Assembly (NCBI GenBank): GCA_032622095.1
Contig: CP136063.1
Coordinates: 91,303,980-91,367,979, forward strand
DNA from: Siphonodentalium dalli
Lineage: Eukaryota > Mollusca > Scaphopoda > Gadilida > Siphonodentaliidae
Direction: 5' to 3'
Length of the DNA: 64,000 nucleotides
The notes below the pieces were generated by a model. The model saw only the letters and a program-made list of their open reading frames with translations. It was not told the origin of the DNA and did not search any database. Made by a program: the position numbers and the translations under genes. Shown piece after piece: positions 3,511 to 63,859 of this stretch (the first letter of the stretch is position 1; every line of letters begins with the position of its first letter).

Positions 3511-3779
3511 TTAACCCTACCATGACTAGAGCTTCTTGAAATTTTGCGAAAACCCTGTGCCAAATTATATTCTCTTATATATGCGAGTCTCCCATAGGGA
3601 GCCTCGTATATATAAGAGAATACATTGTCCTAACAGTATTTACCTTGACCTTGTATATAAGCCAGTGCATTCTCTTATATATGTGAGGCTCCCTATGGGA
3701 GACTCGCATATATAAGAGAATGCACCAGCACAGGATATTTAATGCTGCACCAGCGCAGCTCCCATCATGAAAGGGTTAA
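3511..3779. repeat. Family A palindromic element, full copy
   Basis: 269 bp. The ends are TTAACCCTACCATGA and TCATGAAAGGGTTAA. Inside are two ~60 bp hairpins (stems ATTCTCTTATATATGCGAG and its complement, apex CTCCC-ATA-GGGAG) separated by the TATTTACCTTGACCTTGTA spacer, then CTGCACCAGCGCAGCTCC. TTAA borders followed by CCCTTT point to piggyBac-type mobilisation. No transposase frame is present. Confidence 0.9.
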
Positions 3780-3989
3780 GTAGTGAAGTAGTGTACAAAT
3801 AACACTTGAAACGCTCAGCATGTCAACACCGATATTAGCATATATTATAGTAACCAATAGAAACAATGCATTGCTCAGAGAAGTAGCCAATGAAAACAAT
3901 GAATGGTTGATAGGAAAGTGTTACTAACAACAAATGTTGGCCAGATATGTGAAGACAAATAGCTGATTGAGGCACTGAGATCGCTTTTA

Positions 3990-4445
3990 TTAACCCTCAT
4001 GCTTTCTATACTAAATAGTCACTGACAAGTACAGTAATGCCCTAAATAATTGACTCCTTACCCACAGCAGAATTATGGGTAATTTTTCAGGATTTAGTCG
4101 GAAATATGGCTTGTTGCCATTATTGGGAAAGCTCTCAGTGAGAGCTTTCCGATGAATGGCAACAAGCCATATTTCCGACTAAATCCTGAAAAGTTACCCA
4201 TAATTCTGCTGTGGTTAAGGAGTCAATTATTTAGGGCATTACTGTAGTTCCCTTGGGAAATGTTCAGATAATAAGTTCAACAAATGTTTGTTGAACTTAT
4301 TATCTGACTATTTCCCATCAATGAATAGTAATCCTTCTCCACTAGTGTCTGGTGATGTTTCCTGATCATCTCTCCAGATGAATAATGTATCATTCCCATC
4401 ATTCTGTGGCTAACCGAGTTGTTGAATATCATGAGGGAGGTGTTG
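3990..4445. repeat. Family D element with nested family B copy (composite)
   Basis: D begins TTAACCCTCATGCTTTCTATA. After ACTGACAAGTA it is interrupted by a complete B element (4032-4244, apex AGT) flanked by TA, then resumes GTTCCCTTGGGAAATGTTCA with the AAGTTCAACAAATG fold-back. The right end past about 4400 is decayed. Confidence 0.85.
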
Positions 4446-4559
4446 TATCTGAAATTTTTTCGGAAACTTATATTCGCATTGAATTGAGATAGGTTGACTG
4501 CTATTAAACTGTAATCTAGGTCTCTTTGCCTGTGCTCAAACAGATGTCCAACCCAGGTA

Positions 4560-5277: not shown

Positions 5278-5537
5278 TTAACCCTTTGATGGTGGGAACT
5301 GCGCTGGTGCAGCATTAAAGATCATGTGCCTGTGCATTCTCTTATACAATGTATATGCGAGTCTCCCATAGGAAGCCTCGCATATATAAAATAATGCACT
5401 GGCTTACATGGTCAAGGTAAATATTGTTCGGCCAATGCATTTTCTTACATATGCGAGGCTCCCTATGGGAAACCCGCATATATAAGAGAATTTACTGGCG
5501 CACAAGATTTCATGAAACTCCCATCATGAAAGGGTTA
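5278..5537. repeat. Family A palindromic element
   Basis: Begins TTAACCCTTTGATGGTGGGA and ends CATGAAAGGGTTA. Both internal hairpins are present with apex CTCCC-ATA-GGAAG and its reverse-orientation partner, slightly decayed. Orientation is opposite to the copy at 3511. Confidence 0.88.
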
Positions 5538-6169
5538 TTAGCCATAATTAGCTAATAGAGAAACAAAACTACATTAAACTGGGACACTTTTATTATTATG
5601 GCATTAGTGTTCAACACTAATATTTTTCTCGAAATAGATTAAAATTATCTTACTGCCCCAATACATAGCATATGTATAACAATCTCTTTTAGCTCATCAC
5701 ATTTATATATAATGAAAGTGTCAATGACACTGCAACTCAACTTGGAGAGGGGATAATGTCATACATTACAGTCAGCGGGGCCATAATGAATACAGAAAAT
5801 TGAAATGCTTATGAAAAATACAGGATGCATGCTGTCTCGAAGGATTTAGTCATGCAAAGAGTAAAATTCAAGATGGCTACCAACGGCCATGTTTTTCATC
5901 GAAAATCACAGCTAAAACTGCTTGTGAATTTTAAAAACATTTCTCCAAAGAGAGGCCGATCATGATTGGCAGATGTTAACCCATCCCTTGGCGATATTAA
6001 GTTACTCTGTTACTGTTACTACTTTTTTTTAATTATTATAAAAAAACAATTTTATTATTTTTTGTTGTTATTTATTTATTTATTCATTTTTTGTTGTTAT
6101 TTATTTATTTATTCATTTTATGTTAAATTGTGCAAGAAATTAAAACTAAATTTTTTTTTTTTTTTAAAG

Positions 6170-7310: not shown

Positions 7311-7319
7311 AATGTGGGC

Positions 7320-8360: not shown

Positions 8361-8363
8361 ATA

Positions 8364-9556: not shown

Positions 9557-9819
9557 TAAACCCTTCCTGTACTAAATACTCATTGATGAGTAGTTATCCC
9601 TGAAGAAATGTTCAGATAATAAGTTCAACAAATGACCATAGGTCGTTTGTTGAACTTATTATCTGAACATTTCCTGTAAATAAATAGCACTCTTTTCACA
9701 CTTTTATTATCTGTTGTCTGATTATTTTTCCTGAACACCCCTCCAAATGAATAATAGACCATTCCAATGTATACTTTTATTACTCAATGGAAGAATCCAT
9801 TCAGTATAGAAAGGGTTAA
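9557..9819. repeat. Family D element, uninterrupted copy
   Basis: About 263 bp from TAAACCCTTCCTGTACTAAA to CAGTATAGAAAGGGTTAA. It carries the fold-back ATAAGTTCAACAAATGACC-ATA-GGTCGTTTGTTGAACTTAT. The site where B sits in other copies reads GATGAGTAGTTATCCC here, giving the empty target. TTAA borders and CCCTTTC ends suggest piggyBac-type mobilisation. Confidence 0.88.
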
Positions 9820-10390: not shown

Positions 10391-12257
10391 TTAACTCTTT
10401 CAGTGTCACGGGCCGATCTCATCGGCCTTAAATTATAGTCTGTAGAGTGCCAGGGCTGATAAAATCGGCCCTAAAAAAATTAAAATATTAAATTTTTGTT
10501 TTGTTTTTTTGGGTTGAATTTTTTTTGGGTATGCTTAAGAATGCTATAGCGAATTTAAAAACAAACTGGATAAAACCTTAGGGGCATGTTATAACTCAAA
10601 ACTATCACCAAGTATTCATAGTAATAATTTTGATGCACATGAAAAACGTAAGATTCCCTGGCACTAAACCTACAAAATAAGTCTGGCACTGAAAGAGTTA
10701 GTCCAAGTCTTCTCGTACTAAAACTAGCTAAGATTTTGGGATGGAGAGATGCTAGTGTTTAGTCTGAGATCGCGCGCATAGCCTTCTTATGACACGAGTT
10801 ACGCCCAGGATCTGTGGCGGGAATCTGTGGTGTATTTTACTCGATTTACCTAACAAAGCAATACATGATGCTATATACGTCGGAAAGAGTGACATCTTAC
10901 GGTCAGAATGGTGTATAATAATCTAACTTTAATGTTAAATTACACATAGAATATTCCAGTTGATTGCCACAAACATCGTTGTTTTTTCTGTTTGTTTACT
11001 TGACTGAAAGCCGAACTCAGGTTCCGAAGAACTTCGGCATTGTCCGGTGTTTGTTCTGAGTATTCTAGTTTCCGTTTCTATATATATCGCGGGGTTTTCC
11101 GAACAAAATGGTGAAAACCGATCGCCGCAAAGTCCAGTTTCCAATGTGCTTTGAGAACAATTCCCGCACTAAAAACTTAATGACATAATGGAGGATCAGA
11201 AAGGTAGTTTTGTTGACAATTTTCGCAAGCAACTTGTCAAAATTGGAGCAAATTAGAACTCTTGTGTCTGACTTGCCATGCGTGTGATTTTCATCCATGT
11301 GCATTTTGACTTTTGTGTTGATAAAATAATCAGAGAACCGAATCACACAGTTTCGAAATATAGTTCTTCCGTTTTAGTGGGACTTTTCAAACTTAAGGTT
11401 AAAAATTTATACAATTTTTTTTGGATTTTTTGTGTGCTTAACAAGAGCAGTATATTGCTCTGTTCGCTTAGTATATATCTTAATTTCGCTGAAGTCCACC
11501 AAATGTGGGAAATGTAGCACCATATTATTTATTCTAATGCTCGTTGTGTTTACACTGTTTTAAACTTTGAGAGGGTTGTAATTCCCCGTAATTTATTTAA
11601 TGTATTACATTTATATCTTCAATGTTTAATTAATCTATTTATTTTTTATTTATTGACACACATAATTACGATTACAATGGAGAATTCATCGTAATTTGCG
11701 TTGTCAGTCGAAAATCTACGGAATATTTTCAACGGAAAATGCCGAACACAGTTCGCGAGGTCAACTGAGTTCGCATACTTTTAAAAATTTGTAAACATTG
11801 CGGTAAATGTCTCTTTTCGCATTAAATTACCGCTTTCAATTCATAACTGATGTGGGGTTCAGATCAAATAGCATGTCTTCTGCGGAAAATATCTTTTATT
11901 GTCGCAATTGTGATATTTTATTTCATATAATTGTGGTTTTATTTGAGCGGGTCATTAACGCTTAACTCGTGTCATAAGAAGGCTATGTGCGCGATCTCGG
12001 ACTAAACACTAGCATCTCTCCATCCCAAAATCTTAGCTAGTTTTAGTACGAGAAGACTTGGACTATGAAAGAGTTAAAGAATATAAGAACAAATTATTAA
12101 AATTGTAAAAAATAATAACAAATGATGAAACTGTTTTAGGCCAATGCATTCTCTTATATATGCGAGGCGACCTATGGTCGACTCGCATATATAAGAGAAT
12201 GCATTGGCACAGGGTATATGGGTTGATACAAAAATCGGACTTGGCACTGAAAGGGTA
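10391..12257. repeat. Family E element split by a TA-flanked insertion
   Basis: The left part (10391-10700) begins TTAACTCTTTCAGTG and contains GGCCGATCTCATCGGCC. The right part (12066-12257) has the hairpin with apex CGACC-TAT-GGTCG orientation and ends GGACTTGGCACTGAAAGGGT. Between them lies the element at 10701-12063. The undivided relative is at 19446-19886. Confidence 0.85.
10701..12063. mobile_element. Non-autonomous DNA transposon with ~100 bp inverted ends, TA flanks
   Basis: 1363 bp. Left end GTCCAAGTCTTCTCGTACTA and right end its complement, and the arms match over about 100 bp (to the CATAAGAAGGCTATG region). TA on both sides. The interior (about 10805-11955) has two small open frames with no recognisable transposase. 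Long inverted ends with a TA target suggest a Tc1/mariner or related DNA transposon derivative. It lies inside a family E copy, so it is younger than that copy. Confidence 0.85.
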
Positions 12258-12302
12258 AAACGGACATGGCTTGTTCGAACCCCACAATTATGTATACATA
12301 TA

Positions 12303-12551: not shown

Positions 12552-12783
12552 TTAACCCTTTGAGTGCCAGGTCCGATTTTTGTATCGACCCATATACCCT
12601 ATGCCAATGCATTCTCTTATATATGCGAGTCGACCATAGGTCGCCTCGCATATATAAGAGAATGCATTGGCCTAACCCAAAAAACAAAAAACAAAAAAAC
12701 AAAATTTTTTATTTTTTTTTAGGGCACTCTACAGACCATAACTTAGGGCCGATGAGATCGGCCCCTGGCACTAAAAGGGTTAA
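12552..12783. repeat. Family E element, short complete form
   Basis: 232 bp from TTAACCCTTTGAGTGCCAGG to GGCACTAAAAGGGTTAA. It contains one perfect hairpin (stem GCCAATGCATTCTCTTATAT with apex CGACC-ATA-GGTCG), an A-rich run and the CCGATGAGATCGG short palindrome. Family A-like and E-like hairpins meet in this sequence type. Confidence 0.9.
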
Positions 12784-13318: not shown

Positions 13319-13722
13319 CTTAACCATTTCTATACTAAATACTCATTGACAAGTACAGTAATGCTCTAATTAATCGACCTCTTAACCACAGCATAATTAA
13401 CAAGCCATATTTCGGACTAAATCCTGAAAAGTTACCCATAATTATGCTGTGGTTAAGAGGTCGATTAATTAGAGCATTACTGTAGATCCCTTCGGAAATG
13501 TTCATATAATAAGTTCAACAAACAACCATAGGTCTTTTGTTTAACTTATTATCTGAACATTTCCCACCAATGAATATGAATCATTCTGATCTTGTACTAT
13601 CTGTTTTTCTGCCTTTTGTCTGCTTTTATTACCTGAACAACCCTTGAAATGAATAATAGACTGTTCCAAAATATACTTGTATAACTGAATGGGAGAATCC
13701 ATTCAGTACAGAATGGGTTAAA
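13319..13722. repeat. Family D element with nested family B copy (composite)
   Basis: D runs from TTAACCATTTCTATACTAAA to GTACAGAATGGGTTAA. A shortened B (13355-13482) sits after CATTGACAAGTA, at the same TA as in the copy at 3990. The D fold-back follows, with apex ACC-ATA-GGT. This B has lost the central part of its arms. Confidence 0.87.
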
Positions 13723-14493: not shown

Positions 14494-14732
14494 TTGACCC
14501 TTACATAATGGGAGCCGCTCTGGTGCAGCATTAAATATCATGTGCCAGTGCATTCTCTTATATATGTGAGTCTCCCATATGCACTGGCTTAGAAGGTCAA
14601 GGTAAATATTGTTAGGCCAATGTATTCTCTTATATATGCGAGGCTCCCTATGGGAGACTCGCATATATAAGAGAATGCATTGGCACAGAGTTTTTGCTAA
14701 ATTTCAGGAAGCTCCAGTCAAGAAAGGGTTAA
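14494..14732. repeat. Family A palindromic element, one hairpin damaged
   Basis: TTGACCCTTACATAATGGGA to CCAGTCAAGAAAGGGTTAA. The first hairpin is truncated after GAGTCTCCCATAT; the second, at about 14615-14690, is intact with apex CTCCC-TAT-GGGAG. Confidence 0.85.
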
Positions 14733-15094: not shown

Positions 15095-15265
15095 AATAAA
15101 CATAGAACAACACAGTTGTGTGAACATGTTAACGTTATTGCACTCGTTTGTCGTGCCGCGAGGTAAAACTCGAACCTCCGGTTCTCGTTTTACCATCGCG
15201 TCACAACAAACTCGTACAATAACGTTAACCAGTTCACACACTTGTGTCGTTCTATCTATGTCTTG
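15095..15265. repeat. Inverted-repeat fold-back element with nested palindrome
   Basis: The arm ATAGAACAACACAGTTGTGT to CTCGTTTGT pairs with ACAAACTCGTACAATAACGT to ACACTTGTGTCGTTCTAT. The centre GAACCTCCGGTTC is itself palindromic within AGGTAAAACTCGA / TCTCGTTTTACC. Open frames on both strands here are artefacts of the symmetry. Confidence 0.75.
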
Positions 15266-19445: not shown

Positions 19446-19886
19446 TTAACCCTTTCGGTGCCAGGGGCCGATCTCATCGGCCCTAATTTACGGTCTGTAA
19501 AATCGGCCCTAAAAAATATTAGATTTTTTAAAGATTTTTTTGGGTATGCTTAAGCATGCTATAGCGAATTTAAAAACAAACTGGATAAAACCTTAGGGGC
19601 ATGTTATAACTCTAAACTATCACCAAGTATTCATAGTAATAATTTTGATGCCCATGAAAAACATAAAGATTCCCTGGCACTAAACCTACAAAATAAGTCT
19701 GTTAAAGAATATAAGAAAAAATTATTAAAATTGTAAAAAATAATAACAAATGATGAAAAATTGTTAGGCCAATGCATTCTCTTATATATGCGAGGCGACC
19801 TATGGTCGACTCGCATATATAAGAGAATGCATTGGAACAGGGTATATGGGTTGATACTAAAACTGTCCTGTCACTGAAAGGGTTAA
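19446..19886. repeat. Family E element, undivided long form
   Basis: About 441 bp between TTAACCCTTTCGGTGCCAGG and GTCACTGAAAGGGTTAA. It carries GGCCGATCTCATCGGCC near the left end and, near the right, the hairpin with apex CGACC-TAT-GGTCG. It is the intact counterpart of 10391-12257. Confidence 0.87.
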
Positions 19887-19971: not shown

Positions 19972-20210
19972 TTAACCCTTTCATGATGGGAGCTGCGCTG
20001 GTGCAGCATTAAATACCCTGTGTCAGTGCATTCTCTTATATATGCGAGTCTCCCATAGGGAGCCTGGCATATATAAGAGAATGACTGGCTTACAAGATCA
20101 AGGTAAAATATTGTTAGGCCAATGCATTTTCTTATATATGGCATATATAAGAGAATGCATTGGCACAGGGTTTTCGCAAAAAATCAGGAAGCTCCAGTCA
20201 TGAAAGGGTT
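19972..20210. repeat. Family A palindromic element
   Basis: TTAACCCTTTCATGATGGGA to AGTCATGAAAGGGTT. The first hairpin is intact; the second has lost its apex (ATATATGGCATATATAAG). Confidence 0.88.
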
Positions 20211-21266
20211 TATCATCAAATTGGACAATCTAAATCACTATGTATTATACAAGATAGGATACATTTATCAATATCTAGAACTGTCCATGGCCAGTATGTT
20301 AGGAAGAATCAAATATAAAAAATAAATTCGACCTCCCGCCCCATTTTTATAAAAAAAAGTTGGATGTAAATCTAGCAATTTATTTATATTGGCCTAAACA
20401 GAAATCACAATGCCCATGATTATTATATTTAATATTTTATTCTCAATTATAGCACATGCACACATTACAAAATACACAATATAGACAACAGAACAGTATG
20501 TGGCAGTAATCCCAATGCTTGTTGGTGGCCATTTCCTAGGTATTTAAGGTACACCTGTGGACTCTTTAACACCATTATGTTATGAGCAGAGCTGTTAAGT
20601 TTTACAAATTGTCCGTGAAACTCCAGGATTGCCATATGGAAAACATCCCATTTCTCCTGCATATGCTGTTGCACTATTGGTCACTTCAACATAAAAACAA
20701 AACTGCTCAAAAGTTAAACAAACTGTCTGTAACATCAAGAGTAATTTCATATTCATCATCATTCAGTACTTATCAGCAGTACTAATCGAGACTAATTAAC
20801 TTTCACACCCATCATAGCCATGCAAGCTGTCATAAAAAACTTTGTTTTCATTAAGGTTTTATTTAGGTGTGTATATTTATAAAATAAACACGAACAGAAA
20901 CTCATAAAACTATTTAATCTTCATCACAAAAATGATAAATAAAAAGATAGAATTTAGAAATCAATTTAAAATAAAAAAATTTTGGAACAGAAGTATATTT
21001 AGGCATAGGCCTACCTCCCGCAAAAATCTCCAGGATTGCCATTTTCAAAACTTAACAGGTCTCATTATGAGCCAAGCCAGCTATCGACTCTAGCAATATT
21101 CCCCCTGACCATGTAATAATGGTTTGAAGTGCAGTCCGATATATTATGGCATGCACTACACAAATACATGCATTCATTATTGCCATACTAACCTGGTTTG
21201 CATTAGTCCAGTGACTTCGGAAGGTGTTTGGCCATCTGAAAAGATACATAAATAGAGGAAATGAAA
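20211..21266. other. Intron or downstream DNA, no gene seen
   Basis: Two similar phrases (CTCCAGGATTGCCAT) occur near 20623 and 21027, but no exon with proper borders and phase was found. The missing exon between 22630 and 19342 should be sought here. Confidence 0.4.
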
Positions 21267-21850: not shown

Positions 21851-21910
21851 ATAATGATTGAGTCATATGATAAAGCTGTTTATAGGATGATTTATACTTT
21901 TGCTCTACTG

Positions 21911-22110
21911 TAACCCTTTCATGACGGGAGATGGGCTGGTGCAGCTATTAAATATCATGTGCCAGTGCATTCTCTTATATATGCCAGTTTCCCATAGGGA
22001 TCTTCGCATAGATAAGAGAATGCCCTGGCTTACCAAGTCAAGGTAAATATTGTTAGGCCAATGTATTCTCTTATATATGTGAGGCTCCCTATGGTTTTCG
22101 CAAAATTTCA
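21911..22110. repeat. Family A element, right end lost
   Basis: TAACCCTTTCATGACGGGAG start. One hairpin with a mutated apex, the second cut after GGCTCCCTATGG, then TTTTCGCAAAATTTCAG. Confidence 0.82.
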
Positions 22111-22593
22111 GCCCAGTAGATCCTATACAATAATTAATGTCAAATATAATTTCCATGAAGCCACAACTCTGGACTCAACAACTAGACAGCATTGACAAAT
22201 GCTAATGTCATGTGCAATTGTGCTAATAAATTTGACATCAGGGTTGGCGCTAGACCAAAATTTTGCGAGCCCTGTTTGACATCATCATTATTTGTCCTCA
22301 ACACTGGATTCTTTATTCGGATCATGGAGTGGATTTATTTACACCTCATTATACATGTTAACTTCTGGCATGTCAATTTTTAGGGAGATTGAACTTCAGA
22401 TCTGCGCTCACAAACTGATAGTTTATTTCGTCTGGGCTCACTTTGAATAGTTGTACCATATTGAGAAAGTCTTAGATACCGAATAGCAATGAAATTTGTT
22501 GATATTTTTTCTTATTTGTTATCAAATTAATGCCAGCTGTAGACACCCACCCAACGAACCGACCTCGGCAAACTTTAGGTCAAGTTTTCTGAT

Positions 22594-22616: not shown

Positions 22617-22629
22617 TTCTGATATATAC

Positions 22630-49700: not shown

Positions 49701-52700
49701 AACAATGTGCACATGTTAAAGATCCCTAGACAAATTGGGTGGAAGCACTCATATACTGACTGCAAGCAGTACCAACGAACAAGCAGAAGAATGGTCTCTG
49801 GAATGAACCAATAAGAATGTAATAGTATATATAAGCTTTCAGTAACTTGTGTATAATTTATATATTTTTCATTACCTATAGCCATGATTTAGAATCAAGA
49901 ACTAAAGCATATGTAGAAACAAATAAAATCAGTAAATGAAAGGCTTTGGAGAGGTATGTGCAAATTCTAATTGGTATAAATATACTAGTGCTATTAGCCA
50001 TACCTTTGTCTTTTCAAGTTTTTGTTGTCGATTATTTGCTTCAGCAACACATGCTTGGTATGTAGTCTCAGCCTCTGCAGCCTGAAATAACAGTTAATAC
50101 GTGTGTTAGCAACACCATCGATACATAATCTTACAGATCATAAGTGGCAGCAAATGAATGTGATGTATTATAACACCATCCATGAGAAACACAGATTACA
50201 TATGGGTCAACAAATCAATGTGATGTGCTGTAACACCTTGTATGACAACTTGTGACTCTTGCACCCCCACCCCAGGACTCAACATCACCCCACTAATTTT
50301 CTTCCTTAAGGTCTTCTCTAATTTTGTTCACTTGTTAACAAGAAAAACAAATGGCTGCAAAGACTCCAGACAAGATGTGTCCATCATGGGGGCCATTTTG
50401 CTTGATATGCACCAGGTCTCTTATACTGTCATTATAGTAAATATAATATCACATTCTCTTTTATTTTCCACTTGATTCGTTATGCCAATATACAACCCTT
50501 ACAACTAGCCAAAAATCAGACATCAAAATCCAATATGGCGGCCAAGATGGCAGCTGAAATGTGAAAAATGTATAATTTTCCAACATTTCACCACCTATCG
50601 TTTGTCTCCGAGGGAATACGTAGGCATCTTGGTGGGATTTAAAAAAATTATCATATAGAGGAGTCATTTGTGACACAATGAGATTAAAATATGCATTCCA
50701 GGCTGGATGTTATTGCCCAAAATCATATTCTTCCAAATGCCGGTATAATCCGGTCAAAGTTGTATGGAACATTGATAAAAAGTATTCTTTTGAGTTAGGC
50801 AATTGATAATGTCAAAATGTAAAGATGAAACAGTTCACAAATCATCTATTTGTTCCTATTTAACACTTCTTCAGATGCATAGCGCAGCTAGTAGTATATT
50901 GGGAGAATGAAAACCCAAAATGAATAATCGCAATGTGGCATTTCAAATTCCATTCTCCAGTAAACACTGACAATGTCCTTGGTGCGCCGAATAGTCATAT
51001 TATGACTTACAAGATTCAGAACAACCACCTGTGCTTAATTGTGATTTGCCACTTTCAAAATTATCTGGACCAGCTTCCGTCTGACAGAAACACTATTTGC
51101 AGGCTTGGAGACTGATGAATTCTAAACTTAAAGCTAATCTTACTTTATGTAAGGCCTCCTCCTCCACCTTCTTCCGTTTGTCGACTTTGCTGTTAGACAG
51201 TCCAGATCCAGACTGAGACAACATTTCCTGCTCCGATTTCTGGGCAAGTTCTCGTGCTTTCTCATAATCCTGTTGTCGAGTGATGTATAACGATTGTGCT
51301 TTCTTCAAGTTTGTAACTGCATCTTGCTGAAGAGGAAGCAATCAATTTATAGAAATTACACAGATCAACAGTTGAAACAGAAATTCTGAGCTCAATAATT
51401 ACACAAAACAAGAGGAAGTATTAAGTTCCTGGACATGTTGTGCAAATAGCACATATGGTCACAGATACAATTTCGGAGGAAGTGCATTGCGCTGTTTGAC
51501 AATATTCGAACCCATTTTCTAATTGATATGCTTCTCAATTCTCGGTGAAAGGTCTTCTGTTTATGATGTTGGTTATATCAGAAGAGGAAAAGTAATTACA
51601 AGCAGAGTGAGGTCCCCGGAGGGTGAATTTAGTGACTAAATTCAACCTCTGGGGACCTAATTCTGCAAATGACAGACACACTATTTCATACAGGAACCAT
51701 AAATTCGCAGTACATGTAGATTGTTTTGAAAAACTCTCTGTCCAAATGCATATAAAATATATGGAGCTTGAGACAAGCATTGCTATATTAGAGAAGAACA
51801 CTTACCCATCTGATATCCATTGATAGAGAAGCAAGTTAAAGTAGAAGAAACATATATAAATTGACTTCAAAGCTCAAAGTAGTTTAACCCTTTCATGACT
51901 GGAGCTTCCTGGAATTTTGCGATAACCCTGTGCCAATGCATTCTCTTATATATGAGTCTTCCATAGGGAGCCTCACATATATAAGAGAATACATTAGCCT
52001 AACAATATTTACCTAGATCTTGTAAGTCCCTATGGAAGACTTGCATATATAATAGAAATCACTGGCACAGGATATTTAATGCTGCACCAGCGCAGCTCCT
52101 GTCATGAAATGGTTAACCCTTTCTGTCCCCATTCAGTTTATAAAGTATAAAGACATTGGAAATGGTCTATTCATCTGAAGGGATGTTCAAAAGATTCTGA
52201 TTCATTGGTGGGATATGTTGAGAACTTAATATTTCAACATATCCTAAGCCATCGTATCACCAATGAGTATTTAGTAATGAAAGGGTTAAACTACAATTTA
52301 TCATGATTTTACATTGAATTTGGGAACAAAATATATACTTCAGCCACGCGAAGAGTGAAAATGTGTTATATATTGGTATATAAAGTCGTTAAAAACTTGA
52401 CCATGAATTCAAGTTCAGCAAGGTGTACCTTCATATACTTTTAGGTCACTGGATCTACAAAACAGTGGATTTAGAAATGTTAAATAACAATTTAGCCAAT
52501 AGAATATGCATCTTACGATCATACATAGATAATATGTCCTAAAGAAACACTTACCATTCGTTTCACTTCTTTAGCCCAAGTATCTTTGACAGTTTTGCGG
52601 ACTTTGTCATGTTCTGCTCTTCTTGCTGACAAAGGCTAAAAAAGGAATTCAATAGATATGACTGCAGTTGTTTAAACATAATTTATTATACACTCAACAG

Positions 52701-61700: not shown

Positions 61701-63859
61701 CAAGACGATAAAACATGAATGTGGCTTCAGTGGCCTCTGTGCCAAAGCTACATTCCGGACAAACTCCGTGCACCGTTTGCCAGCTTTCTTTATATCGTTA
61801 TCAGAGGTTACGATATTTTCTTGCAATCATGTTTGTTACCCGTCGTTTTTTACCTCAGACGACTTAAAGGGGCACACGTGAGCAATACAGAGCATTCATT
61901 ATAAGCTTAGAATATATGGAGGAAAATTGGTACACATATGTTTACATGACCAGTGGAATATCATGGGATAGGCAACTTTGACCTCAAATGACTCCTTAAA
62001 GGTGGACTATTGCATAATCAATAAAGAGCGTTTATCAGCAGCTCAGAAGACATGTGGGAAAACTAGTGCACACCTATATAGGTACATGTAACATGACACA
62101 TGGAATGTCATCGGATAGGTGCTTTTGATCTCACCGGACATACAGACTACAGGACCAATAACATAATATGTCTTGTTTTTTTTCTAAACAAGCATATAAA
62201 AACAAGTTATTTTTGGCTAGACCGAGGTAGCATGAGGTTCCATAAATTAATATTGTTTTTTACAGTGGAACATGAAACTCAATGATGAATTAACCCTTTC
62301 TATATTAAATGGATTCTCCCATTCAGTTATAAAAATATGCATTGGAACAGTCTATTATTCATCTGGAGGGGTGTTCAGGAAACAATAAGCAGATAATAAA
62401 AGCACAAAAGGAGTTCAGATAATAAGTTCAACAAACAACCTCTTATCTGAACATTTCCTAAGGAATAAGGAATAACTACAGTAATGCCCTAAGTAATCGA
62501 CTCCTTAACCACAGCAGAATTATGGGTAACTTTTCAGGATTTAGTCGGAAATATGGCTTGTTGCCATTCATCGGAAAGCTCTCCCTCTTATTTTTTTGTA
62601 CTTGTAAATAATTTGGACTGACAGCAACATGCTGACGGCACATGTGGATGAGTGTTTAAAGTCGCATCGATTGCATCCAGTTTAGCAATATAACGCAAAT
62701 CATAAAAAAAAATGTGGATCAATAAATAAAGATTGCTCTCTAAGGAACCGATTAAAGACAACCAAATACCACCAAATTCTGTTAAATATATGTCATCCAT
62801 CATCAGAAGTTATGATAACATACTACGGGTATACCTTATGAAATCGATACATGATCATGTGTTTGTTATGTGTCCGAACATATTCCGTATTTTGATATCA
62901 CTATGAAATTTTACATCCGTTTTGGTTCCTATTTTTTTTTAATTGTTTTTCAATTCGCTATGCTGTCAGGAGATAATCAATGGTACGGTATCTCCTGAGT
63001 CTCCTGCATTAGATATACGCGAAAAAACTTTAGTTATGCTGCGATTGACTCGACTTGAGGTGATCCTATTTCCTATTTTCGTGATATGTTTATCATTAGG
63101 TATTTAAGTCACTTCCCCCAATATATTTAACAAACATGGCGCAAAAAAGTCTATGCAGCGGTCTCTGAGACTCAAATAATATTTTATACAAAAACATTCC
63201 GTTGATGCCAACAACAAGACATATGTGACCCGCCATATCAAATCCAGTCGGAAGTCGGGATTTGCCAATGCATTCTCTTATATATGCGAGTCGACCATAG
63301 GTCGCCTCGCATATATAAGAGAATGCATTGGCCTAACAATTTTTTACAATTTTAATAATTTTTTCTTGTATTCTTTCACAATTTTATAATTTCACCCATA
63401 CAGAGCCCCAGACAAACATGAGCAGACGACACTCTTCTATATGCTTCTATATATGTGTGGGGCTCCCTGCAGGGTAATGGATGTTTTTTATATTATGTCC
63501 TAAAAATTGTAAGAAACATTTATTTAAAAAACATGATAAAAAATTGTTAGGCCAATGCATTCTCTTATATATGCGAGGCGACCTATGGTCGACTCGTATA
63601 TATAAGAGAATGCATTGGCACAGAGTAAAAAAATCCCGACTTCCGACTGGATTTGATATGGCGGGTCACATATACTTTGAGCAATGTGTCTTCCTGTGCA
63701 CAATCTCAGCCCATGGCTAAGAAATTCCTATTTGAAGTAAAATTGTGAGATATTAAAAATTTGTTTCTGGTACATACAGTCTGGCTTTGAGTCCACTTCA
63801 ACTTGAAATCCTTTTTCCTTGTCTTTTTCTTTTCCAAGGATCATAAGATTGTCAACAGA
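22630..63859 (-). CDS. F-BAR and RhoGAP domain protein, ARHGAP45/ARHGAP29/GMIP-like (partial gene, 19 exons)
   Basis: Rho GTPase-activating protein with a membrane-bending F-BAR domain; proteins of this group sit at membranes or the cell cortex and speed GTP hydrolysis by Rho-family GTPases. Nineteen exons were read on the minus strand, all with GT donors and AG acceptors. Intron phases agree throughout: phase 1 after exons A, B, J and K, phase 2 after I, P and Q, phase 0 elsewhere; the last exon ends in phase 1. The joined product is about 661 residues: a short linker (1-27), F-BAR (about 28-310), a Ser/Pro/Gly-rich linker (about 311-430), RhoGAP (about 440-620) and the start of an acidic tail. 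The order and the FLPLQSVY, EEEALHK, GIYRVSG and NLGIVLAPTLLRP stretches fit ARHGAP45/29/GMIP and not srGAP or ARHGAP4. No start codon is present (5' end beyond 64000) and the 3' end is unsettled. No C1 finger was found. Confidence 0.93.
22700..23130. repeat. Minisatellite built from an exon edge and 3' splice site
   Basis: About 13 tandem units of two types: a ~40 bp unit (GAAGATAGTCTACAGATATA then TACAAAGCATAAAATAACAT) repeated from 22704, and a 32 bp unit (CACTGAAGATAAGTCTATAA then ATATATACAAAT) repeated to 23130. On the gene strand each unit reads TATATTTATAG-ACT(T)ATCTTCAGTGA, that is, the acceptor and the first ~14 bases of exon S. One more unit lies past the insertion, at 25453-25507. 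Confidence 0.92.
23340..24460. repeat. Six tandem ~174 bp repeats and GGAC microsatellite
   Basis: The phrase GTGAACATCCATACC recurs at 23431, 23604, 23781, 23954, 24129 and 24303 (spacing 173-177). Other shared blocks are AAACAAAGATGAATAACTCT and CAAAACGATGGAACCCTC. It ends in GGACGGACGGACGCACGCAC and a CCCCCC/GGGGG hairpin. The pattern fits a pearl-like array. Minus-strand open frames of 87-102 residues arise only because the unit is nearly in frame. Confidence 0.85.
24573..24660 (-). repeat. Possible tRNA-like (SINE head) segment
   Basis: On the minus strand ATGGCGTATTGGTAGCGTAG resembles a box A and CTGGTTTAAATCTCCG a box B about 55 bases later. Too degenerate for a tRNA gene; could be a decayed SINE head or chance. 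Confidence 0.3.
25001..25089 (+). CDS. Candidate signal-peptide exon inside a composite insertion
   Basis: ATG followed by MAAVIAPQKLLIVFIIIHVS and ASCNYVLLN, ending at CAG before gtagct. The stretch has a hydrophobic core and a small-residue site (SAS-C) typical of signal peptide cleavage. It sits in about 570 bases of otherwise unexplained, locally GC-rich DNA between two repeat arms (24563-25130). No second exon was found. It could be a captured 5' exon of a host gene or chance; read on without splicing the frame closes at once. Confidence 0.2.
25796..25877 (-). CDS. Exon R: end of the RhoGAP domain
   Basis: 82 nt, phase 2 in and phase 0 out. It encodes DGMPSLAALVDTTHQTRVIE then VMIAAWQ, matching the last RhoGAP helix in which the protein commits to the (V)VExLI pattern. 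A family D element starts 20 bp upstream of the acceptor (25898). Confidence 0.9.
25898..26123. repeat. Family D element next to exon R
   Basis: TTAATCATTTCTATACTAAA to ATCAAGAAATGGTTAA. The fold-back is reduced. It starts 20 bp from the exon R acceptor, so it lies in the polypyrimidine/branch region on the gene strand. Confidence 0.8.
26410..26660. repeat. Family A palindromic element
   Basis: TTAACCCTTTCATGGCTGAA to CCAGTAATGAAAGGGT. Both hairpins present; the first apex reads CTCAC-ATA-GGGAG (one stem mismatch), the second CTCCA-TAT-GGAG. Confidence 0.88.
26790..26870 (-). CDS. Exon Q: RhoGAP NLGIVLAPTLLRP segment
   Basis: 81 nt, phase 2 in and phase 2 out. It encodes VASHSEENHMPASNLGIVLA then PTLLRP. 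The asparagine of NLGIVLAPTLLRP matches the RhoGAP residue that positions the arginine finger and contacts the GTPase, so both key residues are present. Donor gtaagtaac is strong. Confidence 0.96.
26921..27329. repeat. Family F element (AAAGGTACTC ends), diverged
   Basis: Shares GCTCCCAAATTACTATTTCC, ATTTGATTCGAGTCGAGGAA and CTCAGAGTGATCAGATATCG with the copies at 44327 and 57522; ends GATTGAGTACTCCTTTAAG. A TTGTTGTTGTTATTGTTGTT microsatellite has grown inside. Confidence 0.75.
27578..28500. repeat. Long duplicated repeat, copy 1
   Basis: About 800 bp, nearly identical to 35737-36560, beginning AACAAGACAGTCAATGACTG and including CCTCCAGCTCAACAAGTCCC and CATGGACCCAAAACAC. It then continues into ~170 bp units with GACCCCATCTGAATAAATTT. 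Probably a longer retro- or pearl-type repeat; no coding domain could be recognised. Confidence 0.7.
28550..29670. repeat. Tandem cluster of family C elements
   Basis: The phrase CCCCAGTTGAAGTTGGTGAT recurs near 28569, 29002 and 29373 with the same downstream order (CTTCTGCAAATTAGGGGATA, AGAAGATGAGGCCTAAGCAG, family C palindrome). Three units of roughly 370-430 bp. The arms keep ATTCACCCTCTGGGGACCTC. Confidence 0.8.
30040..30890. repeat. Pearl-like array with GGAC run and conserved tail
   Basis: About five units of 150-170 bases with ATGGCCCTGG, TTTGACCCAGTGACC and ATTTGAACAAATCTGAA, then CAGACGGACGGACGGACGGA and the tail GGAGTGATGACTATAGCTCC / ACCGGAGACTTCGTCTCAGG. The same order occurs at 38640-39050. 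Confidence 0.8.
30918..31170. repeat. Family C element, two palindromes back to back
   Basis: Outer arms CAAGCATTGAAATAGTGTGT and ACACACTATTTTTTCAAGGCTTG (split here for length), inner GCAGAATGAGGTCCCCAGAG. The first apex is CCCGC-ATA-GCGGG, the second CCACTATGCGGGGG. It ends about 107 bp from exon P. Confidence 0.85.
31277..31395 (-). CDS. Exon P: RhoGAP middle helices
   Basis: 119 nt, phase 0 in and phase 2 out. It encodes ENLAGSISTPATINKLTQIV, then NMMPESNRNALSLFMGHLQ and a split arginine. LPxxNRxxLxxLxxHLxRV is the expected RhoGAP helix. A family C palindrome ends about 105 bp downstream of the donor. Confidence 0.95.
31470..31729. repeat. Family A palindromic element
   Basis: TAAACCCTTCCATGACTGGA to CCCATCATGAATGGGTTAA, with both hairpins moderately decayed. 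Located in the intron upstream of exon P. Confidence 0.86.
31844..32332. mobile_element. Long inverted-repeat element (~165 bp arms)
   Basis: Ends GATCGTGCCATGAATCTCTA and its complement. The arms match to about ATGTACTTCACTGTA near 31990 and 32162. Flanked by the direct repeat TTGAACTATTAG (31833-31844 and 32335-32346). Long arms and a direct repeat near 9-12 bp would suit a Mutator-like or hAT-type element; no transposase inside. Confidence 0.75.
32971..33027 (-). CDS. Exon O: RhoGAP LPEPL segment
   Basis: 57 nt, phase 0 at both ends: LPEPLLTFKLYPDFIQLAK. LPEPLxxFxLYxxFxxLAK is a core RhoGAP motif. Acceptor actattcag, donor gtaagatt. Confidence 0.95.
33103..33270. repeat. Inverted-repeat element related to 8870-9031
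   Basis: Begins GAACACAATGCACATC and ends GATGCAAGTTGTGTTCTGT. Shares TCTTTTATTGAAT and ATATATTTCA with the other copy. Confidence 0.65.
33274..33545. repeat. Family D element, uninterrupted
   Basis: TTAACCCTTTCTATATTAAA to TTAGCTTAGAAAGGGTTAA, about 272 bp. The empty site reads GACGAGTAGTTACC. The fold-back is CAACAAACGACC-ACA-AGTAGTTTGTTG. Confidence 0.87.
33640..33895. repeat. Family F element, diverged
   Basis: Shares TGAAGATGGATAACTCTAAAA and GGATTGAGTACC(TTTT) with the other family F copies, and has a GTTGTTGTTG run. Confidence 0.6.
33981..34409. repeat. Family D element with nested family B copy (composite)
   Basis: D in the opposite orientation, from about ATCCCTTTCTATACTAAATA to AGTATAGAGACGGTTAA, with B (34178-34373, apex CTCTC-TGT-GAGAG) between GGGAACTA and TACTCATCAATAAG. 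This is the same TA of D used at 3990 and 13319. Confidence 0.87.
34478..34615 (-). CDS. Exon N: RhoGAP catalytic segment with the arginine finger
   Basis: 138 nt, phase 0 at both ends, 46 residues. It begins GIYRVSGVRSKVEGLCQRFE and ends NIVSNVLKQYLRQ. The arginine of GIYRVSG is the arginine finger that completes the GTPase active site in RhoGAP proteins. LCQRFE and the SNVLKxYLRxLPEPL block across the junction are the expected conserved elements. The catalytic residue is intact, so the domain is predicted active. Confidence 0.97.
34700..34935. repeat. Pearl-like fragment
   Basis: AGAGGTTGCACCAGCGGTGC start, a G-rich run (34799-34817), then AACTAACTCTAGAACGGAAA and GTGAACATCCATA, matching the 174 bp units at 23340. 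Confidence 0.7.
35005..35136 (-). CDS. Exon M: start of the RhoGAP domain
   Basis: 132 nt, phase 0 at both ends, 44 residues. It begins KNVERRNTTFGVDF and continues with TPLIITKCLKSIEENGMTLK. The FGVDF start followed by xPxIIxKCxxxIEexGxxxKGIYRxSG in the next exon is the canonical entry into a RhoGAP domain. The intron upstream is 5.4 kb and filled with pearl-like and family C repeats. Confidence 0.95.
35190..35530. repeat. Pearl-like units
   Basis: Two units with TACATTTTGGGCTAGTAAAC / GTATTTTTGGCTAGTAAACT, ending GGAGGGACAGACGGACC. Confidence 0.65.
35737..36560. repeat. Long duplicated repeat, copy 2
   Basis: Direct-orientation copy of 27578-28400, similar over about 800 bp with scattered substitutions. 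The two copies lie in different introns. Confidence 0.75.
36700..37380. repeat. Tandem duplication of ~300 bp with C tracts
   Basis: CTACAACTAATGTTGTATCAG occurs at about 36730, 36971 and 37021; CCAAAACTCCACCCCCTCTA-type text twice; CAATATACCCCCCAATAT plus a C tract twice (36898, 37300). Confidence 0.75.
37386..38190. repeat. Two family C elements with a pearl-like unit between them
   Basis: Family C arms GCAGAATGAGGTCCCCAAA at 37416 and 37958, apex text CCGCAAGGTGGGCTAGCATC. In between lie ATTTGAACAAATCTGAACCC units and a GACAGATGGATAGACATC tail. Confidence 0.75.
38640..39050. repeat. Pearl-like array with GGAC run
   Basis: Units with GTTATGTCACTGGCTCC and TTTGAACAAATCTGAA, then GACGGACGGACGGACGGACA and the tail TGATGACTATAGCTCCACCG. 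Same order as 30040-30890. Confidence 0.8.
39750..39870. repeat. Imperfect inverted repeat
   Basis: AAAGAGTGAGTAAACACTCA pairs loosely with TTATCACGTACTCTTT; GTGACCCATTCAACACCG pairs with CCGGTGTTGAGTC. Around it is locally GC-richer DNA with no coding signal. Confidence 0.5.
40161..40413. repeat. Family C element, double palindrome
   Basis: Outer arms AAGCCTTGAAATAGGGTGTC and GACAGACACCCTATTTCAAG. Two inner palindromes with apexes CCACGC-ATA-GCAGG and CCACTATGCGGGG. Very similar to 56992-57166. Confidence 0.88.
40543..40610 (-). CDS. Exon L: linker before RhoGAP
   Basis: 68 nt, phase 1 in and phase 0 out. It encodes the split alanine and NRECLKQHPVGADMLDIQGI plus LK. In vertebrate relatives the C1 finger lies hereabouts; this exon has one cysteine and no HxxxxxxxxxxxxCxxC pattern, so it is not a C1 domain. 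Acceptor tttatttag, donor gtcagtt. Confidence 0.78.
40685..40842. repeat. Short family E-type inverted repeat
   Basis: TTAACCCTTTCAGTGCCAAG, then TCCGATTTTTGTATCAACCC, and their complements, enclosing about 80 bp. The usual hairpin module is absent and replaced by unrelated AT-rich DNA. Confidence 0.85.
41181..41632. repeat. Two family A elements head to tail
   Basis: First copy 41181-41454, second 41451-41632, sharing the TTAA at the joint. The second lacks its right end. Hairpin apexes partly decayed (CTCCC-ATA-GATTG in the first). Confidence 0.85.
42448..42499. repeat. Family A end fragment near exon K
   Basis: GGGTTTTCGCAAAATTTCAG, then GAATCTCCAGTCATGGAAGG and GTTAA. Only the terminal part remains, 29 bp from the exon K donor. 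Confidence 0.8.
42529..42702 (-). CDS. Exon K: Ser/Pro/Gly-rich linker
   Basis: 174 nt, phase 1 in and phase 1 out. It encodes DKFRVKAWGQSPLAGDGEAG, a serine/proline-rich stretch (HDSSPNASPRPGFRPPLIAS) and an acidic end (MDEVTEEYIVEE). The SP-rich content suggests a phosphorylated linker between F-BAR and the catalytic part. Codon use is more GC-rich than the surrounding introns. A fragment of family A (42448-42499) ends 29 bp beyond the donor. Confidence 0.82.
43266..43391. repeat. Fold-back repeat
   Basis: GAATACCTGAAACATCTCAT and GAAATATAGAATTTTCACTCG pair with CATGAAAATTTGATATTTCT and ATGAGATATTTTGTTATTC around a central GTAGTTGCGCCG. Confidence 0.65.
44026..44238. repeat. Family B palindromic element
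   Basis: CAGTAATGCTCTAAGTAATC to GGGCTTTACTG, 213 bp, apex CTCTC-GGG-GAGAG, TA on both sides. Nearly perfect arms. Confidence 0.93.
44327..44700. repeat. Family F palindromic element
   Basis: TTAAAGGTACTCAATCTGAT to ATACCTTTAA. The arms carry AAATTACTATTTCTTTGGCT and GATTCGAGTCGAGGAACCC with complements. Most symmetric copy of the family; centre near 44510. Confidence 0.82.
44789..44844 (-). CDS. Exon J: short linker exon
   Basis: 56 nt, phase 2 in and phase 1 out. It encodes DTDSRKSNDPEGSPHLRK, a polar linker. It is supported by the in-frame joins on both sides and by splice signals (acceptor tctattttcag, donor gtacgc), not by conservation. A family C palindrome starts 19 bp upstream of the acceptor, so the repeat edge must lie inside or beside the branch-point region. 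Confidence 0.75.
44864..45250. repeat. Family C element beside exon J
   Basis: GCAGAATGAGGTCCCCAGAG from 44864, a first palindrome, the spacer with CTTCTGGGAAGTATCTATAG, and a second palindrome near 45150-45240. It begins 19 bp from the exon J acceptor. Confidence 0.8.
45476..45704. repeat. Family A palindromic element, decayed
   Basis: TTAACCCTTTCAAGATGGGA to TCCAGTAATGAACGGGTT. One hairpin with apex CTCCCGTTGGGAG; the second mostly lost. Confidence 0.8.
45860..46053 (-). CDS. Exon I: end of the F-BAR domain
   Basis: 194 nt, phase 0 in and phase 2 out. It begins VTVEYFQTLQTVAAPIPIQC and includes the YVPGLQYAEFVRRLPEA turn, equivalent to the pxxPGxxYxEFVRxL motif that closes the F-BAR domain in relatives. 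It ends SSNFVFEPYVSQ plus a split arginine, matching the aromatic segment that follows the F-BAR domain in ARHGAP45. Confidence 0.92.
46394..46419. repeat. C26 homopolymer
   Basis: Run of 26 C in the intron upstream of exon I. An overlapping open frame with a proline run is an artefact. Confidence 0.85.
47041..48588. mobile_element. Pogo/Tigger-like DNA element, non-autonomous
   Basis: 1548 bp with TA on both sides. Left end CAGTCAATTCCGCTTTATTG-CATA; right end, complemented, CAGTCAATTTCAGTTAATTG-CATA. The CAGT start and TTTATTGCA-type ends recall pogo/Tigger elements. An internal ~175 bp segment is duplicated (47857-48030 and 48078-48255). No transposase frame was seen. The candidate peptide exon at 48267-48354 lies near its right end. 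Confidence 0.75.
48267..48701 (+). CDS. Candidate small secreted peptide precursor, two exons, antisense in a gene intron
   Basis: Exon 1 (48267-48354) starts with ATG and encodes a signal-peptide-like stretch: MKLK, then a hydrophobic core IAVFALAMVIF, then NNFALSFPI. It ends CAAG before a gtaaat donor. Exon 2 (48640-48701) follows a ttttattttcag acceptor; the phase-1 join gives GIGVLSRQKSFLTGKKRGYM and a TAA stop. Total 49 residues. GKKR is a classical amidation plus dibasic cleavage motif, as in neuropeptide and other secreted peptide precursors. Against it: exon 1 lies inside the 47041-48588 transposon-like element and exon 2 outside it, no promoter or poly(A) signal is clear, and short frames like this can be chance. 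Without splicing, exon 1 would stop after two more residues. Confidence 0.3.
49254..49313 (-). CDS. Exon H: F-BAR helix
   Basis: 60 nt, phase 0 at both ends, 20 residues: ADLLARIREQILLCDQVMKQ. It corresponds to the (V/I)RxL-xxxDxVxKx helix after the ACVAEAN segment. Acceptor cattttcag, donor gttagtgc. Confidence 0.88.
49365..49835 (+). repeat. tRNA-derived SINE
   Basis: Box A TGGCTCAGTTTAATAGTGG at 49378-49396 and box B GGTTCAAATCC at 49432-49442 give a tRNA-like head for RNA polymerase III. The body has ATGTGCACATGTTAAAGATC followed by CC, a phrase like the TTAAAGATCCC box seen in many invertebrate SINEs. Ends are approximate. It was copied by reverse transcription through a LINE partner, by analogy with known SINEs. 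Confidence 0.7.
50004..50081 (-). CDS. Exon G: F-BAR, ACVAEAN segment
   Basis: 78 nt, phase 0 at both ends. It encodes AAEAETTYQACVAEANNRQQ then KLEKTK. The YxACVAEAN-xRQQxLExTK pattern is one of the most conserved parts of the ARHGAP45/29/GMIP F-BAR domain. Acceptor gttatttcag, donor gtatggc. Confidence 0.95.
51144..51326 (-). CDS. Exon F: F-BAR long helix
   Basis: 183 nt, phase 0 at both ends, 61 residues. It encodes a coiled helix with KKAQSLYITRQQDYEKAREL, a serine/glycine spacer (SQSGSGLSNSKVD) and KRKKVEEEALHK. The KAxxLYxxRQxxYEKAR and K(R/K)xxEEEALxK blocks with a Ser/Gly spacer between them are hallmarks of this GAP group. Confidence 0.95.
51602..51690. repeat. Family C element, short form
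   Basis: GCAGAGTGAGGTCCCCGGAG, GGTGAATTTAGT and complement with almost no loop (AGTGACTAAATTC). Internal part deleted. Confidence 0.8.
51884..52289. repeat. Family A and family D elements side by side
   Basis: Family A 51884-52115 (TTAACCCTTTCATGACTGGA to GTCATGAAATGGTTAA), then family D 52112-52289 (TTAACCCTTTCTGTCCCC to AGTAATGAAAGGGTTAA). The two share one TTAA. Confidence 0.85.
52555..52635 (-). CDS. Exon E: F-BAR central helix
   Basis: 81 nt, phase 0 at both ends. It encodes PLSARRAEHDKVRKTVKDTW, then AKEVKRM. It matches the family pattern PLxARRxExxxxRKxxKxxWxKExKRM. Donor gtaagtg is near consensus and the acceptor is tttttag. Confidence 0.92.
53008..53221. repeat. Family D element
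   Basis: TTAACCCATTCATTACTAAA to TTAGTATATAAAGGATTAA; reduced fold-back. Confidence 0.8.
53639..53768. repeat. Family B element, left arm deleted
   Basis: AGTAATGCCATAAATAATCG-ACTG joins directly to TGAGAGCTTTCCGATGAATG and the full right arm to GGGCATTACTTA. Confidence 0.85.
53995..54016. repeat. G22 homopolymer
   Basis: Run of 22 G in the intron between exons D and E. Further poly-C/G tracts occur at 24966-24979, 29982-29998 and 36898-36914. Confidence 0.85.
54371..55250. mobile_element. hAT-type non-autonomous element with 8 bp target duplication
   Basis: 880 bp. Ends TAGGCTTGCCGCGATTTTGG and its complement. Flanked by CATGTTAT at 54363-54370 and 55251-55258, an exact 8 bp duplication, the size hAT transposases make. 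Subterminal CGATTAATCG repeats occur at both ends (54395, 54425, 55193), which would suit transposase-binding sites. No transposase frame. Confidence 0.92.
55259..56219. other. Intron DNA, no gene seen
   Basis: AT-rich DNA between exons D and E without a recognisable repeat or exon. Confidence 0.45.
56220..56930. repeat. Pearl-like array with GACA/GACG run
   Basis: First unit AAAGGGCCATAACTCTGTTA; three later units of about 150 bp with ACCGATCAACCGATCGATAC and CATCATAAACCTACATATC, then GGACAGACGGACAGACAGAC and ACGACGGATGGTTGATCCGG. Open frames of 68-120 residues on both strands are produced by the microsatellite. Confidence 0.75.
56992..57166. repeat. Family C element, internally deleted double palindrome
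   Basis: AAGCCTTGAAATAGGGTGTC and ACAGGCACCCTATTTCAAGG ends with two shortened palindromes; close relative of 40161-40413. Confidence 0.85.
57221..57331 (-). CDS. Exon D: F-BAR, FLPLQSVY segment
   Basis: 111 nt, phase 0 at both ends. It encodes CFLPLQSVYCTALVQDMEYS, then GTCHTTLNLLQTHKFLE. The F-LPLQS-Y-x-ALxQDxEY signature and the TLxxLxxxKF-x-PL transition into the next exon are specific to ARHGAP45/29/GMIP-type F-BAR domains. Family C repeat material ends about 55 bp beyond the donor (57166). Confidence 0.93.
57522..57783. repeat. Family F element
   Basis: TTTAAAGGTACTCAATACGA to GATAGAGTACCTTTAAG with the GATTCGAGTCGAGGAA arms. Shorter in the centre than the copy at 44327. Confidence 0.8.
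57865..58010. repeat. Fold-back repeat with CTCCTC arms
   Basis: AACTGTTCTGAGTGGCATAC pairs with ATGCTACTCAGAACAGTT; TTTTCTCCTCTCGTGAGATG pairs with CATCTCACTCGAGGAGAAAA. Confidence 0.75.
58098..58300. repeat. Family C element
   Basis: CAAGCCTGCAAATAGAGTGT end, arms AGAATGAGGTCTCCAGAGGG, apex CCCGCACAGCGGG, then the CTTAGGCCTCATC spacer piece. Confidence 0.8.
58551..58615 (-). CDS. Exon C: F-BAR helix 1, continued
   Basis: 65 nt, phase 1 in and phase 0 out. It encodes EAEYAKNLTRLAQSMRPVLT plus EE. This corresponds to the FCH segment (E-x-EYAKxLxxLA) that defines F-BAR proteins. The phase-1 join with exon B restores the glutamate codon. Donor gttcgtat is weaker than most in this gene. Confidence 0.9.
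59388..59735. repeat. TTAAAGGGGTACTG-ended palindromic element
   Basis: 348 bp with ends TTAAAGGGGTACTGTACACT and complement. The arms include CATTTACGGGACCATCTCC and ATGGTAATTATAATGA and fold onto each other for most of the length. Flanks are AT-rich, so the target duplication (TA or TTAA) cannot be decided. Confidence 0.82.
60760..61105. repeat. Pearl-like units with GGAC/GGAAGGAC run
   Basis: TCCAAAAAGGGGCGTAACTC occurs at about 60789 and 60950, then CGGACGGACGGAAGGACAGA and ACCCCCAAATCTCCATCGGA. It sits in the intron upstream of exon C; open frames on both strands are artefacts. Confidence 0.75.
61200..61337 (-). CDS. Exon B: start of the F-BAR domain
   Basis: 138 nt, phase 1 in and phase 1 out. 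It encodes LSPEEIDAVLCKLDAGVELS followed by AKAWSKYAKEIMAYVERKAQL. This is the first F-BAR helix of the ARHGAP45/29/GMIP group, where the pattern LDxGVELaLxxAKxWSxYAK is characteristic. Acceptor ttttaatttcag, donor gtatgcac. Confidence 0.93.
61388..61520. repeat. Family D fragment
   Basis: AACAAACCCTTACTATACTA then GGATTCTCAAATCCAGTTAC and TGCAGAAGGATTCTTT; the rest is missing. Confidence 0.65.
61880..62135. repeat. Two tandem ~125 bp units
   Basis: Unit 1 has GGAAAATTGGTACACATATG and GGAATATCATGGGATAGGC; unit 2 has GGGAAAACTAGTGCACACCTA and GGAATGTCATCGGATAGGTG. Origin unknown. Confidence 0.55.
62290..62584. repeat. Family D element with nested family B half (composite, truncated)
   Basis: TTAACCCTTTCTATATTAAA start, D body, then GGAATAACTA followed by B (62479-62584) that ends after the CTCTCCCTC apex. 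B again sits at the same TA of D. The right part of both is lost. Confidence 0.83.
63231..63672. repeat. TGTGACCCGCC-ended palindromic element, intact
   Basis: About 442 bp. Ends ATGTGACCCGCCATATCAAA and complement, arms GTCGGAAGTCGGGATTT. Two family E-type hairpins (apex CGACC-ATA-GGTCG) lie inside, separated by ACCCATACAGAGCCCCAGAC and related text. TA-flanked. It gives the uninterrupted form of 23131-25452. Confidence 0.85.
63778..63859 (-). CDS. Exon A: linker before the F-BAR domain
   Basis: 82 nt, enters in phase 0 and ends in phase 1. It encodes a charged linker (SVDNLMILGKEKDKEKGF, then QVEVDSKPD) ahead of the F-BAR domain. The acceptor is preceded by a tttcattccag tract and the donor is gtatgta. 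A family B palindrome begins only 31 bp upstream of the acceptor, at 63891. The linker itself is not conserved enough to recognise; it is accepted because it joins in frame to exon B. Confidence 0.75.

Follow-up and report, generated by a model that had tools for sequence, protein, structure and literature searches.

Members of the piggyBac family duplicate a TTAA target, and MITE-derived small-RNA hairpins have a long near-perfect stem and a short loop. Paired changes in the two arms of such a stem are usually taken as proof of a functional structure. Within inverted repeats, template switching is reported to produce spacer inversion and clustered arm changes (PMC8604942; PMC8794818).

The window analyzed here is a stretch of 64,000 nt from the scaphopod mollusc Siphonodentalium dalli, with a GC content of 36% and 82 inverted-repeat pairs (at least 20 nt, arms at most 300 bases apart). 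Three ORFs beginning with ATG, GTG or TTG reach at least 120 aa, the longest being 138 aa. When 8 of the 19 stop-to-stop ORFs of at least 100 aa were scanned against Pfam, we observed weak matches only, none above the cut-off, and no transposase was seen in the window. A tRNA scan returned nothing, and no Rfam family matched at the gathering score. The hairpin arm pattern, and likewise one B and one C pattern (families described below), had no match in viral contigs, nor did a tip-tolerant hairpin pattern in genome contigs; as the two collections consist of viruses and prokaryotes, these negatives say little. Among the matches listed in a search of the open-licence literature (titles and abstract openings), we found no description of the element and none of tip exchange between MITEs.

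The anatomy of the elements can be read directly from the window (Table 1). The 12 elements of family A are dispersed and TTAA-bordered, lack a long ORF, and follow a plan of two 69-bp hairpins in opposite orientation, some truncated; A01, at the window edge, shows one. Each element has two hairpin classes, S (GCCAGTGC..GCACTGGC) and I (GCCAATGC..GCATTGGC), and the spacer is conserved in 12 occurrences. Where preserved, the ends are of the TTAACCCTTTCATGA type and are common to both sides of the element, forming terminal inverted repeats. An exact TTAA is present at both ends in 3 of 12 elements (A02, A09 and A12), at one end in 8 of 12 and at neither in A06, counts affected by the cutting of A01 by the window and by the loss of the right ends of A06 and A10. 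The three E copies contain one hairpin each, and their end, TTAACCCTTTCAGTGCC, is related to that of A; the terminal repeat was found at one end only in E1-E3. On the tail side, homology between E1 and E3 stops at TTAA, and at the opposite end E3 has TTAA whereas E1 is damaged. In the three T copies, which supply four modules, the hairpin is the same and the ends are TGTGACCC. Beyond the hairpin, E1, E3, T2 and T3 run into one common AT-rich tail, indicating that E and T have the same interior with different ends. The initial sequence-only reading, which had proposed a shared hairpin with distinct ends for these two families, was correct in this.

Table 1. Coordinates of family A, E and T elements, D hairpins and C elements in the window
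Feature	Positions	Strand	Details
A01	1-155	+	cut by window start; hairpin 39-107
A02	3511-3779	-	TTAA both ends; hairpins 3561-3629, 3661-3729
A03	5278-5538	+	hairpins 5334-5403 (7-nt insertion), 5431-5499
A04	14494-14732	+	left hairpin lacks one arm; right hairpin 14616-14684
A05	19972-20212	+	hairpin 20022-20089; centre-deleted hairpin 20118-20164
A06	21910-22111	+	hairpin 21961-22029 plus a truncated hairpin; lacks right end
A07	26410-26661	-	hairpins 26458-26523, 26544-26611 (apex of the second CTCCATATGGAG, perfectly palindromic)
A08	31470-31729	-	hairpins 31518-31584, 31612-31679
A09	41181-41454	+	TTAA both ends; hairpins 41239-41307, 41339-41407 (second with triloop inverted relative to mismatch)
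A10	41451-41620	+	abuts A09 at common TTAA; two deleted hairpins; right boundary approximate
A11	45476-45704	+	hairpin 45526-45594 and a truncated one
A12	51884-52116	-	TTAA both ends; hairpin 51932-51998 plus a truncated hairpin
E1	12073-12259	-	hairpin 12140-12208, CGACC tip
E2	12552-12680	+	hairpin 12603-12671; A-rich tail; right boundary approximate
E3	19700-19886	-	hairpin 19768-19836
T1	23131-23241	+	one TGTGACCC end; hairpin from 23183; adjoins 32-bp minisatellite
T2	25250-25452	-	one TGTGACCC end; hairpin 25333-25401; shared AT-rich tail
T3	63224-63670	+	TGTGACCC both ends; hairpins 63264-63332, 63551-63619
D hairpin	4254-4317	+	lacks exactly the 11-nt tip GACCATAGGTC
D hairpin	9605-9673	+	tip TGACC-ATA-GGTCG at 9633
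D hairpin	13494-13564	+	tip CAACC-ATA-GGTCT at 13514
D hairpin	33320-33388	+	tip CGACC-ACA-AGTAG at 33340
C element	30946-31140	+	two hairpins, the first with exact CCCGC-ATA-GCGGG (30986)
C element	40188-40370	+	two hairpins

Judged by their termini, the A elements look like piggyBac-type passengers with TTAA ends, as do the E elements by their one recognizable end. Family A resembles piggyBac-type MITEs in having TTAA bounds with CCCTTTC inside, no long ORF and many dispersed copies; unlike such MITEs, A has two internal hairpins, E has the repeat at one end only, and T has other ends. Three further features touch the E and T families. A 32-bp minisatellite (22817-23131) stops at the base where T1, with its TGTGACCC end, starts. 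An element at 40685-40841 has E-type repeats at both ends around another interior with no hairpin. At 24475-24506, near a CGGA-type tandem repeat, part of a hairpin arm and the beginning of the E/T tail remain from an E/T copy.

A search with the hairpin arm ATTCTCTTATATATGCGAG, allowing up to 3 mismatches, gave 48 matches on both strands; we extracted 30 modules (23 from the 12 A elements, 3 from E and 4 from T), 23 of them near-complete (16 A, 7 E/T). A single hairpin is thus common to A, E and T as had been claimed, but its length is 69 bp rather than ~60 bp and A carries it twice, in opposite orientation. Two versions of its tip, with both arms changed together, had also been reported, and these were confirmed: CGACC-ATA-GGTCG is exact in all 7 E/T modules, and CTCCC-ATA-GGGAG is the A consensus, exact in 5 of 23 modules. 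Another A tip is stem-exact with an inverted loop and the rest are damaged or truncated, several A modules having deletions that reach the apex. The single T.C mismatch below the tip (columns 28/42) is indeed kept in both versions: near-complete A modules retain it at 30 of 32 sites and E/T modules at 14 of 14. Both changes in A are in A01b, which reads C opposite T. Across all families, we counted 22 perfect 5-3-5 tips within longer hairpins in the window, compared to a total of 1 across 20 Markov shuffles, and a looser scan for C-ATA-G or C-TAT-G tips gave 32 compared to 3-16 per shuffle. The occurrence of these tips in hairpins is beyond chance. The DNA folding z-scores of the four examples that we folded were -12 to -16, as expected of any such palindrome.

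We compared the consensus sequences of the hairpin classes to locate the difference between the two tips. The I consensus differs from that of E/T at columns 30, 31, 39 and 40, all transversions and all in the tip, and at columns 46 and 62, where A is found in 5 of 9 and 7 of 11 I copies, giving the majority I consensus two C.A mismatches. Beyond the tip, the A and E/T consensuses are identical apart from columns 5/65 (in the S class) and columns 46 and 62 (in the I class), so the hairpins have a common and recent origin. That the founder difference is clustered is a direct observation: the tip change is confined to a block of 11-13 nt (13 nt at most) bounded by the T.C mismatch, and the probability that four changes would fall randomly as two adjacent complementary pairs is ~4e-6. 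Written from A to E/T, a direction that we presume, the tip changes are T->G and C->A, which permit no G.U intermediate and no wobble path. The outer pair 5/65, by comparison, differs by a transition in each arm, for which G.T is a possible intermediate, and module A03a shows the G.T state. None of the 30 modules is a full one-arm intermediate, one arm carrying all the E bases and the opposite arm all the A bases. In module A09a, column 39 of one arm reads T, the E base, with the left arm unchanged and two non-E changes alongside; this module could be read as a partial intermediate. Clustered, complementary in both arms and lacking a clear intermediate (A09a being a partial candidate), the tip change bears the marks of template switching, and one templated event is its simplest cause.

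We consider it probable that A, E and T are non-autonomous, non-coding mobile elements (MITEs) made of palindromic modules, and that their two tips go back to one templated replacement in a founder, followed by transposase amplification and then one-sided decay. In the founder, the 11-13-nt apex block inside the T.C mismatch would have been swapped in one step for a different self-complementary block. The most likely mechanism, acting while the apex existed as a DNA hairpin, is template switching by a polymerase or a short conversion. Amplification of each founder by a transposase, presumably of the piggyBac type, would have followed, and the copies would have decayed neutrally through ordinary one-sided point mutation. 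An inverted triloop with an intact tip stem in the second A09 module (41339-41407) is a template-switch footprint; the chance of this inversion by three point changes is ~2e-4 over 16 modules. Template-switch (quasi-palindrome) mutations, as presented in the two reports (PMC8604942, PMC8794818), share with this locus the clustered multi-base change in both arms and the inverted triloop, seen here in one copy. Unlike them, the replaced block was not copied from the other arm of the same hairpin, and the T.C mismatch was left unrepaired.

Families D and C bear on whether tips have also moved between elements. The D consensus CGACCATAGGTCG, derived from three damaged copies, has the 13 nt of the E/T tip on a different outer stem; D fragments shorter than the full hairpin are also present. 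The claim that D has the E tip holds for the majority consensus of the three copies, but the tip is exact in none of them. Similarly, the reported C tip CCCGC-ATA-GCGGG was exact in one copy (30986) and variable in the others. Among 10 aligned C modules, the loop is ATA in 5, ACA in 4 and another sequence in 1, and the likeness of C to the other families includes this ATA/ACA loop and, mostly, the closing C-G pairs. The stem variation in C is largely at CpG present in both arms. We discounted an apparent compensated change in C (CCCGC..GCGGG to CCTGC..GCAGG) as evidence of structure since the pair that varies is a CpG in each arm and forms altered on one side only occur frequently. An 11-mer in the spacer of two C elements, GTCTCCCATAG, was rejected as a donor of the A tip, as approximately half a hit would be expected by chance in a rough estimate of 15 words against 128 kb of both strands.

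These likenesses suggest a common tip or tip exchange, a suggestion made post hoc from three tips. One explanation of this kind is that the tip is an exchangeable cassette, with self-complementary C-ATA-G blocks moving between unrelated hairpins by template switching. E/T and D share one tip on differing outer stems, while A and C have others; the apex of one D copy matches the E/T tip exactly over 12 nt and another D copy lacks exactly the 11-nt block; and the T.C mismatch six positions from the loop is found in A, in E/T and in 5 of 10 aligned C modules. However, the resemblance was noticed after the fact, and the probability that a second hairpin has the same arm and loop by chance (~1.2e-5 per hairpin pair) must be multiplied by all family pairs. 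In addition, the 12-mer occurred somewhere in 1 of 60 Markov shuffles of the window, a centre deletion explains the D copy lacking the tip, and only three different tips are known. We therefore rate the cassette explanation as unlikely. The broader proposal that palindromic elements here trade C-ATA-G-centred tips across ancestries during extrusion, keeping pairing in one step with no selection, is speculative and in our judgement rather unlikely; if true, tip exchange between families would allow template switching to be measured as a process in animal mobile elements. The tip common to E/T and the otherwise unrelated D is the one surprising remainder in what is mostly ordinary mobile-element biology.

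The sequence-only reading had attributed the paired stem changes either to selection on the folded form or to repeated copying of one arm from the other. Within families, we found no excess of paired changes, a direct observation from changes counted against the class consensus (as cells, which are not independent events). In the 16 near-complete A modules (497 pair cells), there were 64 one-sided changes and 3 two-sided changes, of which 1 was paired, compared to an independence expectation of 2.7 two-sided and 0.9 complementary; columns 46 and 62, probably inherited, supplied 9 of the 64. The 7 E/T modules (223 cells) gave 6 one-sided and no two-sided changes, and in all 30 modules, fragments included (796 cells), one-sided changes numbered 88 and two-sided changes 3, 1 of them paired. 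Family A showed 62/850 changes per site in the outer stem, 12/159 in the tip stem and 5/48 in the loop, as against 40/521 and 27/469 in the ends and 18/369 in the spacer, the end and spacer rates leaning low because they come from BLAST hits that span 75% or more of the query. Stem, tip and loop have thus diverged to a similar extent as the ends and spacer, and the stem (7.3%) is not slower than the ends (5.8-7.7%) or the spacer (4.9%). G.T pairs left by one-sided changes numbered 22 on the aligned strand and 27 on the other (p 0.57), indicating that neither RNA strand is favored. Within families, selection on the folded form is thus not supported. Recurrent arm copying is likewise unsupported, since most mismatches persist; one single copying event survives as a reading.

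A mixed alignment of 22 modules (15 A and 7 E/T, 19 distinct) beat all 500 shuffles in covariation score (0.129 vs. a shuffled mean of 0.083), in two-sided cells (16 vs. 6.1) and in cells paired (88.6% vs. 86.0%). The shuffles were not beaten in the count of pairs with changes in both arms (6 vs. 4.2, reached by 86 of 500) or in pair types (98 of 500). Pairs 5/65, 30/40 and 31/39 account for 13 of the 16 two-sided cells, and the covariation signal comes down to two differences inherited from founders, the outer transition pair and the tip. When the 15 A modules were taken alone, the signal weakened: 16 of the 500 shuffles attained the score, 24 the count of two-sided cells, 44 the share of cells paired and 131 the number of pairs; 5 of the 8 two-sided cells were the S/I pair 5/65. 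A score above every shuffle can therefore arise from two inherited differences, and mobile palindromes can mimic conserved RNA structure. The module has the long near-perfect stem and short loop of MITE-derived small-RNA hairpins; unlike those, it has no within-family sign of pairing selection and no Rfam match at the gathering score. In a small copy set from one window, the covariation results, with no paired excess and stem versions belonging to separate founders, run largely against the initial proposal.

Selection on the fold, either of an RNA (for instance one that gives rise to small RNAs) or of extruded DNA, could still have acted in a few active copies, the sampled copies being dead and freely decaying. 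Founder-level differences comprise 2 that are paired (5/65 and the tip) and 1-2 that are one-sided (46 and 62), so the paired share is larger than among the copies (1 paired vs. 64 one-sided; Fisher 0.008 if two one-sided differences are counted, 0.004 if one, on four events only), an enrichment also expected from selection in an active lineage. With a single event observed at the tip and a single one at the outer pair, one template event and a quick series of selected changes in such a lineage are inseparable. The S and E/T consensuses are, moreover, fully paired save for the T.C mismatch. On the other hand, the I consensus, from an amplified lineage, has the two uncompensated C.A mismatches, and E/T, the least diverged modules (outer stem 6/377 vs. 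62/850 in A), contain only one-sided changes. Together with the absence of strand bias and of any Rfam family at the gathering score, this makes selection in active copies quite unlikely. Two separately founded hairpins diverging through point mutation alone are highly improbable: each tip version is restricted to its own families in the window and A09a has one E base in one arm, but the near-identity of the E/T and A consensuses outside the 13-nt tip and the four clustered complementary transversions, improbable under drift, argue against separate founding.

Palindromes of another type, B, with TACAGTAATGCCC ends, adjoin D hairpins or fragments at four places (4027-4317, 13353-13564, 34139-34375 and 62413-62589), which suggests a composite B-D element. 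The arms of nine B palindromes (at 1750, 2944, 4138, 4666, 8470, 12384, 17282, 34284 and 44132) are alike and their central bases vary, being AGT in four and CCT, ACA, TGT, GGG and one longer form in the others; the B apex may be mutation-prone. A separate palindrome at 15102-15255, with the tip GAACC-TCC-GGTTC, occurs once.
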